From the NCBI RefSeq assembly GCF_002954615.1, contig NZ_MSCJ01000001.1, positions 2,666,001 through 2,730,000 on the forward strand: a DNA stretch of 64,000 nt, given 5' to 3'. The position numbers and the translations under genes are program-made. Numbering within the stretch: the first letter of the stretch is position 1; the number at the start of each line of letters is the position of its first letter. Positions 33,580 to 37,850 of this stretch are shown one piece after another. This stretch comes from Photobacterium angustum. Lineage in GTDB: Bacteria > Pseudomonadota > Gammaproteobacteria > Enterobacterales > Vibrionaceae. The notes under the pieces were generated by a model. The model did no database searches. It saw only the letters and a program-made list of their open reading frames with translations, and was not told the origin of the DNA.

Positions 33580-34593
33580 CTACACTAAAGCGGTTAATTG
33601 CGGGAAACCATTTCGAATATTTATGCACTGCATCGCTTGCGAAGATGCACCTTTTAACAGGTTATCAATCGCAGATGTTAAAATAATATGCTGACCATTC
33701 ACCTGCCAGCCAATATCACAGAAGCAAGTCCCTACCACATTCTGTAGACGTGCCGCTTGTGTTCCTAAAAGACGTACCGCATGTTTATCTGCTGTAGATG
33801 CATATGCTAGGTTCAATGCTTCCGTTACCTGCTCTAGCGTAACGCCTTGTGCTAGCTTCGCTGTAATAGTTGCAAGAATGCCACGTTTAAAGTTGCCAAG
33901 ATGGGGGGTAAAAATAACGTCACGACCTAGATGAGTACTGATTTCAGGTTGGTGGCGGTGGGAAAATAAACCGTAAGCTTGCAGGCTTACTTCGCAGAAA
34001 CTATTAGTCATGGTCGCTTTTCTACCAGCGCCAGACACACCACTGACCGCATTAATCACTGGCCACTGCTCGGTATCAAGTAAACCCGCTTCAATTAATG
34101 GTTTAAGCGCTAATTGTGAAGCTGTTGGGTAACAGCCCGGAACAGCAATTAGTTGTGCTTTGGTAATTGCATCATGATTCCACTCCGCCAAACCATAAAC
34201 CGCTTGTTCAAGCCAATCTGAATATTGATGTTCAAAGCCATAATATTGGGTATAGAAATCATCACCTTTGACACGAAACGCACCAGACAAATCAAAAACC
34301 TGACACCCTTGTTCAAGAAAACTGGCAGCAAGGTCATGGCTGACTTGGTGGGCTGTGGCAAGTAAAACAACGTCAGCATTTTTAGCAATATCACTTGGAC
34401 TGATTAACGGCTGTAACGGTAAATCAACAATGCCTTTCAATTGACCATGCAAATCACTTAACGGTTTACCCGCATCAAGGCTGTTTTCAGAAACAAATAA
34501 ACCCGCAAGTTCTAAGTGAGGGTGCTTAACCACCATTTTCGCAAGTTCTGCGCCGGTATAGCCGCTTGCACCGATAATTAGAGTCTTTAACAT
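33580..34593 (-). CDS. argC: N-acetyl-gamma-glutamyl-phosphate reductase
   Basis: ArgC reduces N-acetylglutamyl phosphate with NADPH. It is 337 residues from [21 protein letters not shown] (dinucleotide fold), with the catalytic Cys in [13 protein letters not shown] and the conserved KPLIEAGLL and HRHQPEI segments. The ATG at 34593 gives the canonical start. It is the first gene of argCBGH(A). Its leader is about 280 nt long and carries an arginine-ending mini-frame. The usual divergent neighbour argE is missing. Confidence 0.96.
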
Positions 34594-34714
34594 TACAAAT
34601 TCCATTTTTAGTCTAATGATTGTTGTTACCGTTTAGGCGCAAATCTGGCTTGAGTCTTTATTTTTTTGCAGCAGTAACGTGTAACAAGGAGTGCTGAAAA
34701 CAGCAAATATGAGG

Positions 34715-34735
34715 GGCGCATACGCACCAAGCGAA
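34715..34735 (-). promoter_or_regulatory. Competing hairpin elements in the arg leader
   Basis: On the minus strand GGTGC (34728-34724) pairs with GCGCC (34719-34715) around GTAT. The first three bases of this hairpin are also the last three of TTCGCTTGGT (34735-34726), which is perfectly complementary to ACCAAGCGAA (34782-34773) inside the leader peptide frame. The two pairings therefore compete. Confidence 0.5.
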
Positions 34736-34741
34736 TATGAC

Positions 34742-34786
34742 TTAGCGTCGTCGGAAGGTATGAGTAAAAAGCTTCGCTTGGTTCAT
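34742..34786 (-). CDS. Candidate arginine leader peptide of argCBGH(A)
   Basis: A 14-codon frame on the minus strand encodes MNQAKLFTHTFRRR and stops with TAA right after CGA CGA CGC. AGGA lies 9 nt before the ATG. It starts about 90 nt after the predicted argC transcription start and ends about 150 nt before argC. Three arginine codons at the end of a short frame, in the leader of an arginine operon, with an inverted repeat spanning the frame, is the layout of amino-acid-sensing leader peptides. That it is translated and senses arginine is inference; I know of no established arginine attenuator in this family. Confidence 0.6.
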   Translation of the reverse strand: MNQAKLFTHTFRRR

Positions 34787-34851
34787 GTTAAAACATCCTA
34801 AATTAACAATGGAGACCCGGCATTCCTTGCTCAGGTTACGGCTAAATAAAG

Positions 34852-34911
34852 CAATAAATTATTCGTTTGCGTTGCATTTATATGTTTACTGATTAATTAA
34901 CGTACTGTCAA
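34852..34911 (-). promoter_or_regulatory. argC promoter with candidate ARG boxes
   Basis: On the minus strand TTGACA (34911-34906) and TAAACA (34888-34883) are 17 bp apart. Two 14-bp stretches, 34886-34873 and 34865-34852, have centres 21 bp apart as tandem ARG boxes do; the second contains CGAATAATT, matching the core TGAATAATT at 8 of 9 bases, while the rest matches poorly. ArgR repression is inference. Confidence 0.5.
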
Positions 34912-34996
34912 CAGAAAAGCCTTAAAAACCTCACTTTCCCAATCCTTTTCAAAACTTTTCCTTCATCTTTTTGTAACATTTTCATCATTCATCGAT

Positions 34997-35025
34997 TTGA
35001 CATCAGTTTGAGACAATATTATTAC
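34997..35025 (+). promoter_or_regulatory. Candidate ppc promoter, distal
   Basis: A perfect TTGACA (34997-35002) is followed after 17 bp by TATTAC (35020-35025), upstream of ppc. Confidence 0.42.
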
Positions 35026-35138
35026 TAACTGTTATTTGTTAGCAAACGAGCAATAATGAAACAAAATTACAGACTTCAATCGCATTTATGACCAAAATCA
35101 AAATAGATCGGTTTTAACACTTATAAATGTAATGATAG

Positions 35139-35168
35139 TTGACCTCAAAGTGAGATCACGGCTAGATT
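35139..35168 (+). promoter_or_regulatory. Candidate ppc promoter, proximal
   Basis: TTGACC (35139-35144) and TAGATT (35163-35168) are 18 bp apart, giving a leader of about 45 nt. Confidence 0.4.
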
Positions 35169-35219
35169 GTCTGTTAGAAGTTTAAATTGGATGTAACTAA
35201 ATTACGAGATGGATGCGAT

Positions 35220-37850
35220 ATGAATGAGAAATACAGCACGTTAAAAAGTAACGTAAGTATGCTAGGCCACCTGCTTGGTAATACCATTAAAACGGCACAT
35301 GGTGACGAACTGTTAGATAAAGTCGAAACTATTCGTAAACTATCTAAATCAGCACATTCTGGTAGTGAAGAAGATCGTGCAAAACTTATCGATGAGCTAC
35401 AGAACTTACCCGATGATCAATTACTTCCAGTTGCTCGCGCCTTTAGCCAATTCCTGAATCTCACGAATATTGCAGAGCAATACCATACTATCTCTCGTCA
35501 ATGTGAAACCACATTATGCAGCCCTGATGCACTCGATGAGCTATTTAATAAGCTGACCGATAATGATGTCAATCAGCTTGATTCTATTGAAGCGGTTCGT
35601 GAACTTAATATTGATTTAGTGCTAACAGCACACCCAACAGAAATCGCTCGACGTACCATGATTCACAAATTGGTACAGATTAATAAATGTTTATCTCAAT
35701 TAGAGCTTAGCGAGTTATCAACCTCTGAACGAGCACGTATTGAGCAGCGCCTTGAACAGCTTATTGCCCAAGCATGGCACTCAGATGTTATTCGTCAGCA
35801 ACGCCCAACCCCAATTGATGAAGCTAAATGGGGCTATGCCGTTATTGAAAATTCACTATGGCAAGCTGTACCAGAATTTCTTCGCCTATTTGATGAAAAA
35901 TTACAGCAACACCTTGGCGAAGCCCTTCCTCTTGACGCATCACCAGTCACCTTCTCTTCTTGGATGGGTGGAGACCGAGATGGTAACCCATTTGTTACCT
36001 CAAACGTGACACGTGAAGTGCTCTCTTTATCACGTTGGAAAGCGGCAGATCTTTACCTCAATGATATTCAAGAGTTGATCAACGAATTATCCATGACTCA
36101 GTGTAACGAGACAGTGCGTGAGCTTGCGGGCGAAGAGCATGAACCTTACCGCGCGATTCTAAAGCAACTACGTAATAAGCTAGTTCATACTCGTGACAAT
36201 CTTGATGCGAAGATTCATGGTCAAAAACCCGCCTCCGATATTGTTATTGAAGATATTGCAGAGCTGTGGGATCCACTGTATGCGTGTTACCAATCACTGC
36301 ATGAGTGTGGCATGGCTATTATTGCTGATGGCCTACTGCTTGATACATTACGTCGCGTTAAATGTTTTGGCGTACACTTAGTCCGTTTAGATATTCGTCA
36401 AGAAAGTACTCGTCATTCAGATGTGATATCAGAGCTTACTCGTTACCTTGGACTGGGTGATTACGACCAATGGAGCGAGCAAGATAAAATTGCTTTCCTT
36501 GTTCGTGAACTATCATCGAAACGTCCACTTCTTCCTCGTGACTGGGAACCATCGGCTGAGGTTAAAGAAGTCATTGAAACCTGTAAAACTATTGCAGAGC
36601 AATCCCGTGAAGCACTAGGCTCATACGTCATTTCAATGGCGCGTACGGCCTCTGATGTACTTGCCGTTCACTTACTACTGCAAGAAGCTGGCTGTCCATT
36701 TAGAATGGATGTCTGTCCATTATTTGAAACGCTTGATGACTTGAATAATGGTGCTGATGTTATTGAGCAACTACTGAATATTGACTGGTATCGTGGCTTT
36801 ATTCAAAACCACCAAATGGTCATGATCGGCTACTCAGATTCAGCTAAAGATGCGGGTGTAATGTCGGCAGGTTGGGCGCAATATAGCGCAATGGAAAAAC
36901 TGGTTGATGTTTGCGAACAAGCTGGGGTTGAAATCACCCTATTCCATGGTCGTGGCGGTAGTATTGGCCGTGGTGGTGCACCTGCACATGCTGCACTGTT
37001 ATCTCAACCACCACGCAGCTTAAAAGGTGGCTTACGTGTAACCGAACAGGGCGAAATGATCCGCTTTAAGTTAGGTTTACCAGAAGTCGCTATCAATAGT
37101 TTAAGCCTTTACGCGAGTGCAACACTTGAAGCCAACCTACTTCCGCCTCCAGCACCTAAACAGGAATGGCGTGAACTGATGGATGTGTTATCTGAAGTCT
37201 CTTGTGAAGCTTATCGCAATGTTGTCCGTGTTGATCCTGAATTTGTTCCTTACTTCCGTGCGGCTACGCCTGAACTTGAGTTAGGTAAACTGCCTCTTGG
37301 TTCTCGTCCAGCGAAACGTAATCCGCAAGGTGGCGTAGAGAGCTTGCGTGCGATCCCATGGATTTTTGCATGGAGTCAAAACCGTCTATTGCTACCAGCA
37401 TGGCTGGGTGCAGGCGAAGCAATTCAGTATTCAATCAACAAAGGTCACGCGAAATTGTTAGAAGATATGTGTCGAGAGTGGCCTTTCTTCTCTACACGTC
37501 TAGGTATGCTTGAAATGGTTTATGCCAAGACCAACACCGGTATTGCTAAATACTATGACGAGCGTCTAACAGATGAATCTCTATGGCCATTAGGTCAAAA
37601 GCTTCGTGATCAATTAGGTAAAGATATTAAGGCCGTTTTAACGGTTGAAAATAACGATCACTTAATGGAACAAGACCCTTGGGGCGCTGAATCAATTCGA
37701 TTACGCAACATTTATGTTGAGCCTCTTAACATGCTACAAGCAGAGCTGTTATATCGAACTCGACAGCAGGAAGAGTTACCTTCAGCACTTGAAGAAGCCT
37801 TAATGGTTACTATTGCTGGTATTGCAACAGGCATGCGTAATACTGGCTAG
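35220..37850 (+). CDS. ppc: Phosphoenolpyruvate carboxylase
   Basis: Ppc fixes bicarbonate onto PEP to refill oxaloacetate. It is 876 residues from [20 protein letters not shown], with catalytic His138 in [12 protein letters not shown], the motif [13 protein letters not shown], the glycine loop [12 protein letters not shown] and the conserved C-terminus MRNTG. The ATG at 35220 is preferred over an upstream in-frame start 11 codons earlier because GAGATGGA precedes it. A strong terminator follows. Confidence 0.97.

Follow-up and report, generated by a model that had tools for sequence, protein, structure and literature searches.

The argC leader of Photobacterium angustum encodes MNQAKLFTHTFRRR, which sequence comparison confirmed as a real, conserved, arginine-coded leader peptide. 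It is probable that this leader is an attenuator of the argCBGH(A) operon, which would measure arginine through the translation of CGA CGA and would operate beside the control by ArgR. The window, i.e. the whole stretch of 64,000 nucleotides that was analyzed, contains the following features of this locus.

34883..34911, minus strand: likely argC promoter (TTGACA, 17 nt, TAAACA), identified by eye from Vibrio argC upstreams; not listed by the consensus promoter scan
34850..34888, minus strand: degenerate ARG box pair (34888-34871 and 34867-34850) in 21-bp register, with 11 and 11 of 16 consensus letters
34796..34799, minus strand: Shine-Dalgarno AGGA of the leader ORF, 9 nt 5' of its ATG
34742..34786, minus strand: leader peptide ORF MNQAKLFTHTFRRR*, sequence read base by base
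34773..34782, minus strand: arm 1, ACCAAGCGAA, codons 2-5, covarying with arm 2
34748..34753, minus strand: CGA CGA dicodon, which stays constant among the leaders (all 35 genus loci, 17 of 55 other-family argC upstreams)
34726..34735, minus strand: arm 2, TTCGCTTGGT, 3' of the stop, covarying with arm 1
34715..34728, minus strand: hairpin B, GGTGC-GTAT-GCGCC, with GGT common to hairpin B and arm 2
34709..34720, minus strand: C-rich stretch after hairpin B, start of a candidate Rho-loading region; putative function suggested by C bias
34692..34705, minus strand: hairpin C, TGCTG-TTTT-CAGCA, from terminator scan and fold; by eye, several relatives have hairpins like it
33580..34593, minus strand: argC, first gene of argC-argB-argG-argH(A) (TIGR01850, 382 bits)

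The leader ORF and its distribution in Vibrionaceae

The leader ORF is located between argC and the divergent gene ppc. It comprises 14 codons from the start ATG (34786-34784) to the stop TAA (34744-34742) and ends with CGA (34753-34751), CGA (34750-34748) and CGC (34747-34745). An initial annotation made from the letters alone had described this frame, with AGGA 9 nt upstream and a stop directly after CGA CGA CGC, and its coordinates hold base by base. The operon was identified by NCBIfam profiles as argC-argB-argG-argH(A), in which argH(A) is fused. Judged by the spacing to GGA, an argC start at 34593 is more likely than one at 34605. Four weak Rfam matches were obtained in 34300-35300, all of them below the gathering scores.

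ARG boxes were scored against a 16-letter consensus, and the pair sum of 34888-34850 was attained at 0.02% of the window positions. Many relatives displayed ARG box pairs in the same register, and an argR gene was found in the P. angustum genome. Since the predicted promoter and the ArgR operator are both located upstream of the mini-ORF, the argC transcript should include it. The window genome also encodes a second ArgR-like protein (112 bits, under the cut-off), the gene of which adjoins two ornithine carbamoyltransferase-like genes (G000:C1:93146-96481; L250, L271 and L272); these may together form an arginine catabolic cluster. Another contig of this genome gave an additional, partial ArgC-like match with 35% identity (G000:C3:885259-885903).

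A counterpart of the leader ORF was detected before argC in all 35 genus loci with argC; G012, which gave no argC match, stands outside this count. A covariance model was built from 38 leaders, and matches were accepted at E up to 1, with filters that may lose weak matches. Exactly one match was obtained in each of 52 genus genomes, and in all 51 genomes with a located argC it was directly 5' of this gene, on the same strand and 11 to 81 nt away. Many of these 52 genomes supplied leaders to the model and match by construction. Eleven matches (P. phosphoreum type and G012) are independent of the model building; they had lower scores, with E from 7e-9 to 2e-4.

Among named relatives, 80 loci were found via ArgC and searched within 300 nt for a mini-ORF that starts with ATG and contains CGA CGA in frame. 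Such an ORF was present in 33 of them, belonging to Photobacterium (22 of 22), Grimontia (4), Enterovibrio (5), Veronia (1) and Vibrio (1, sp. Of7-15). The other 47 loci had none, and 45 of these were from Vibrio or Aliivibrio. In the comparison of Photobacterium and Vibrio argC upstreams that the initial annotation had proposed, all 22 named Photobacterium loci have the mini-frame and 45 Vibrio and Aliivibrio loci are without it. The 47 named loci without the leader ORF match an ArgR-type box well: the mean of the best box score (of 16) was 14.1 in them and 13.1 in the loci with the ORF. The ORF was also found in further Vibrionaceae genera (g28, g29, g31 in 2/2, g32, g33 in 2/2, g35, and g27 in 3/5) and was absent from genus g26; the genus counts and the named-locus counts overlap, because several loci are identical records. 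Vibrio mini-frames with a TTG start, ending in LRR or similar, were set aside because by eye they overlap the argC promoter. Some Aliivibrio argC upstreams, such as L108 and L113, contain another short ORF without Arg codons (ATG..VTLNG..LQ stop, by eye) after AAGGA-like letters.

Two matches not located 5' of argC (L110 and L136) were removed before leader entries were counted and C exposure was compared, and the remaining 77 leader entries represent 73 loci. A Shine-Dalgarno match of at least 4 nt was found in 55 of the 77 entries and a weaker one in 22; one Photobacterium clade has no clear Shine-Dalgarno before the leader ORF. The codon after CGA CGA was CGC in 65 entries, CGA in seven, TGC in three, and CGT and TGA in one each. 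The Photobacterium peptides have 14-16 residues and a C-terminal Arg-Arg-Arg, mostly after Leu or Phe, while by eye the N-terminal residues vary between clades (MNQA.., MDKFS.., MMPLA.., MKTNFSHNS..).

Within the window genome, CGN CGN CGN plus stop occurs at 50 places. Thirty of these were scanned and six examined closer, none of the six leading into an arg gene; the other 20, argC included, were outside the scanned set. ATG mini-frames were carried by three of the places (L179, L186 and L190). Clustered Arg codons were absent within 400 nt upstream of argF and carA of this genome.

Reading frame and codon choice in other families

Eighteen other families of the order Enterobacterales were represented by 55 genomes. 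In 17 of these, an in-frame CGA CGA mini-ORF was found within 300 nt of argC, and 13 of the 17 had a Shine-Dalgarno match of at least 3 nt. The 55 upstreams were hand-picked (15 + 40) from the 121 other-family genomes with a match, and families with very distant ArgC were left out. Dinucleotide shuffles of these upstreams contained on average 0.13 such mini-ORFs, with a maximum of 2 in 200 rounds. When the same letters were read in the other two frames, GAC GAC gave one and ACG ACG none, and the reverse complement gave none. Eight of nine other Arg pairs gave zero or one, and CGA CGC gave two. The stretch from -500 to -300 contained a single match, which fits a more distant leader of L228. With L228 counted, the mini-ORF was present in all members of f6 (4/4), f11 (2/2), f13 (3/3), f16 (3/3) and f17 (3/3), and in some of f2 (1/3), f25 (1/3) and f7 (1/5); ten of the 18 families had none before argC. 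Among genomes of other orders, none of the 20 read (of 85 with a match) had a CGA CGA mini-ORF before argC, and one other-order genome (L266) had an RR mini-frame without CGA CGA.

More than any other result, this frame test indicates that the letters act as codons and that the choice of CGA is itself important. Among the Arg codons of the window genes counted, CGT has the largest share (55%) and CGA accounts for 14.5%. CGA is a minority codon whose pair has nevertheless been kept, so that conservation extends beyond the residue to the codon itself.

A chance reading frame was ruled out by the frame specificity over the other families together with the covariance-model matches across the genus. 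The wider proposal that the ORF is no sensor, with CGACGA under constraint as RNA or DNA or with a frame due to chance, seems to us scarcely credible. It could draw on the arm letters, which are kept at the nucleotide level whatever the amino acid, but it is opposed by the frame specificity across the 55 other-family sequences (18 families) and by the conservation of start, open frame and nearby stop alike.

Some leader peptides, such as the fungal arginine attenuator peptide and TnaC, arrest the ribosome from within the exit tunnel. An arrest of this type, with free arginine as the ligand, would agree with the constant length and C-terminal Arg-Arg-Arg of the Photobacterium peptides. However, by eye the residues upstream of the stall site differ between clades, and a peptide sensor leaves the choice of CGA over CGT unexplained, so that we regard it as very improbable here.

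RNA pairings, C exposure and the putative termination step

The perfect complementarity of arm 1 (ACCAAGCGAA, 34782-34773) with arm 2 (TTCGCTTGGT, 34735-34726) and the overlap of the latter with the hairpin at 34728-34715, both part of the initial annotation, were confirmed; the letters in common are GGT. A 108-nt piece folded with the 10-bp helix between the arms (helix 1:2) at z -2.56, with 2 of 200 shuffles equally stable. The fold of the whole 227-nt leader was less special (z -1.38, 17 of 200 shuffles).

Over 38 leaders, the arms paired in 94.7% of the cells compared with 89.2% after shuffling, and double-change cells numbered 25 compared with 10.5. Pairing fell to 39% or less when one arm was slid by 1 to 3 columns, and RNAalifold recovered eight of the ten arm pairs unprompted. 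The count of pair types was not above that of the shuffles (8 and 8.9). The main compensatory change is CAA/TTGG versus CAG/CTGG, which may reflect few events; others were found in L023 and L160, and by eye L161 retained a shifted complementary pair. Residue 2 varies (Asn, Ser or Ile) while the letters of arm 1 stay, so the stretch of codons 2-5 appears to be held as RNA. For hairpin B, the mean stem score of 37 leaders was 13.5, compared with 7.7 after shuffling of all letters but the first five; singly, 12 of the 37 reached p 0.05 or less, and the window's own p was 0.125.

The pairings differ between clades. Helix 1:2 overlaps hairpin B by GGT, and the helix is missing in nine P. phosphoreum-type leaders, for which RNAalifold predicted a pairing between the Arg codons and a distal arm. 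The leaders of Grimontia and Enterovibrio pair their final Arg codons and stop with an arm adjoining a G-C hairpin, and in f17 the Arg codons are able, by eye, to pair with a CGTCGGT arm. In the f16 leaders (L048, L234 and L235), several codons separate CGA CGA from the stop, and a competition between CCGGGAGGC, GCCTGCCCGGG and GCAGGC is apparent by eye; the stall and stop positions would select pairings unlike those of Photobacterium, and the wiring seems different. The end of the peptide thus appears steadier than the surrounding RNA, as is expected of attenuators. The attenuator layout for arginine that had been proposed for the P. angustum leader is supported by the conserved frame, the Arg codons and the covarying arms; mini-frame and Arg codons are kept in 35 of 35 genus loci, and the arms are conserved and covary over 38 leaders.

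The initial annotation had also stated that no U-tract terminator follows. In a stricter scan, 26 of 31 leaders had no terminator-like site and five had one, hairpin B itself in three. A looser scan of the window listed the hairpins at 34728-34715 and 34705-34692 as terminator-like, with weak T-rich tails (2 compared with 0.5 expected). The statement mostly holds, with the two weak sites of the looser scan to be added. Since a strong conserved U-run intrinsic terminator was not found, we would not file the leader as a classic attenuator of the trp or his type.

Intrinsic attenuation, in which hairpin B (or C) would be a weak terminator and helix 1:2 the antiterminator, appears improbable to us. 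The two window hairpins of the looser scan, the five leaders with a site and the overlap of the arms, which resembles classic attenuators, agree with it, but the 26 leaders without a site do not. In addition, Grimontia and f17 use the Arg codons as arm 1, so that starvation would favor hairpin B, which has the wrong sign if hairpin B terminates.

Rho is the likeliest terminator of the argC leader, as a predicted step with a predicted wiring, because a strong conserved U-tract terminator was not found and the leader is C-rich. Downstream of CGA CGA, C outnumbered G in 31 of the 33 named leaders; in the 47 named loci without the leader, C outnumbered G over a fixed stretch (bases -110 to -15) in 26. 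This C richness is only a hint of Rho. In folds of 56 entries (MNQA and other types), the downstream C was more open without a ribosome than with a stalled one in 36 and the reverse was found in five; the Grimontia-type folds agreed in 11 of 11 (reverse 0), and nine phosphoreum-type leaders gave none for and two against. The difference exceeded the mean of the shuffled controls in 33 of 37 leaders and in 11 of 11 of the Grimontia type, but was not significant singly (median p 0.175 and 0.125); the effect is small and the sequences tested are related. In the window the switch is also small, with hairpin B having five or three bp. The folding and ribosome wiring is the weak part of the explanation.

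We propose the following scheme. With ample Arg-tRNA, the ribosome would finish the leader ORF and leave, helix 1:2 would re-form and hairpin B would be shortened; the C-rich leader would then lie open and ribosome-free, and Rho would stop transcription before argC. When Arg-tRNA is scarce, a ribosome would wait at CGA CGA and helix 1:2 would be unable to close, so that hairpin B could cover part of the C-rich strand and RNA polymerase could reach argC. ArgR would act separately, at the promoter. The initial annotation had a ribosome at the Arg codons mask the downstream arm. In Photobacterium, however, the estimated footprint of a ribosome on the CGA CGA dicodon would fall within the loop that the long helix encloses and leave the downstream arm uncovered, so masking needs a steric or queued-ribosome version. 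In the latter, a second ribosome at the start codon would sit over arm 1, behind the one waiting at CGA CGA; with CGA at codon 12 to 14 of the genus leaders, there would be room for this second initiation.

The same arginine-reading peptide could instead have its output in the stability of the mRNA or the translation of argC, comparable to the RNase G branch of the speF leader in Salmonella. We consider this unlikely, but less so than intrinsic attenuation. The lack of a strong conserved terminator would suit such an output, and the speF leader provides a precedent that reads two Arg codons and acts on decay (according to the accessible part of PMC6386406). In the fold of the whole leader (34820-34594, minus strand), moreover, the argC Shine-Dalgarno region pairs with a stretch 5' of the mini-ORF. 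This pairing is known from one sequence, though, in the window some 100 nt separate the hairpins from the argC start, and the C-rich bias suits termination better.

Comparison with known leader peptides

To our knowledge, teaching on gammaproteobacteria attributes the control of arginine biosynthesis to ArgR. With a leader peptide shared by several families, a translational sensor would be added to this textbook regulon, and arginine would join His, Trp, Leu, Thr, Phe and Ilv as attenuation-controlled. Such a peptide would also show that a single slow codon pair, CGA CGA, has been selected for sensing, and would offer a natural test case for synonymous codon choice in leader peptides and for attenuation without a strong visible terminator. 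Whether the argC leaders form a new attenuator class is more doubtful: one shared by several families of the order, lacking an intrinsic terminator, acting on top of ArgR and sensing CGA CGA via the inosine-containing tRNA-Arg is conceivable, and it might respond not to arginine alone but to both the charging and the wobble modification of a single tRNA.

In the attenuators for His, Trp, Leu, Thr, Phe and Ilv in proteobacteria, the last element is a U-run intrinsic terminator. The argC leader resembles them in having a leader ORF with codons for the operon's own amino acid and alternative pairings after the stop, but differs in that a strong U-run terminator is not conserved. In E. coli tnaC, whether Rho terminates transcription ahead of a metabolic operon depends on a ribosome retained on a short leader ORF, and the stall is caused by the nascent peptide with free tryptophan. 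The argC leader may be likened to tnaC in its predicted ribosome-governed Rho termination, whereas in the argC leader the codon is apparently the sensor.

No description of an arginine-biosynthesis attenuator was found in the open-access literature. Six attenuators are listed in a survey of Shewanella regulation; they cover branched-chain amino acids, His, Thr, Trp and Phe, and Arg is not among them in the part available (PMC3223726), and the available part of a survey of proteobacterial regulons names no arginine attenuator (PMC5343134). Term searches of the accessible portions of PMC2659441, PMC2965389, PMC1382215, PMC13393422 and PMC3505737 found no arginine or argC leader or attenuator. 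The claim that arginine is not an established attenuator class in proteobacteria needs to be narrowed, because orf34 (SpeFL) before speF of Salmonella senses arginine; for arginine biosynthesis none was found. Arginine-sensing leader peptides in proteobacteria are thus already known, and what looks new here is a leader-peptide sensor for arginine biosynthesis, so far undescribed as far as the open-access literature shows.

Codon choice has been addressed in a Salmonella his-leader assay, in which translation of CGA was slower than that of CGT or CGC, and attenuation was strongly relieved by Arg-Arg pairs containing CGA (PMC4046918, accessible part). In S. aureus rbfL, rare Arg codons of a leader ORF sense arginine limitation (PMC13009471, accessible part); rbfL differs from the argC leader in covering the rbf ribosome-binding site, in its Gram-positive host and in its non-biosynthetic operon.

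The closest system is the Salmonella speF leader, which is compared here from the accessible part of PMC6386406. Its orf34 senses arginine via two consecutive Arg codons and Rho is involved. The two leaders have in common a short ORF, consecutive Arg codons, a gammaproteobacterial host and arginine sensing, the last being proposed for argC. Rho-dependent premature termination, a CU-rich sequence and a hairpin just after the stop in the speF leader can be likened to the argC leader, where the Rho step is a predicted one. However, the speF leader controls ornithine decarboxylase, while the argC leader precedes arginine synthesis genes. It has 34 codons with Arg at codons 12 and 13 and a conserved HIRRT..HIM core, and this core of the SpeFL/orf34 family (DUF2618) was not seen by eye in the argC leader peptides. 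Complete translation protects the speF leader from Rho, unlike in the scheme proposed for argC, and rare and frequent Arg codons are equally effective in it, which counts against the codon-choice reading of the argC leader. A CGACGA version of orf34, built by its authors, was still arginine-responsive (PMC6386406).
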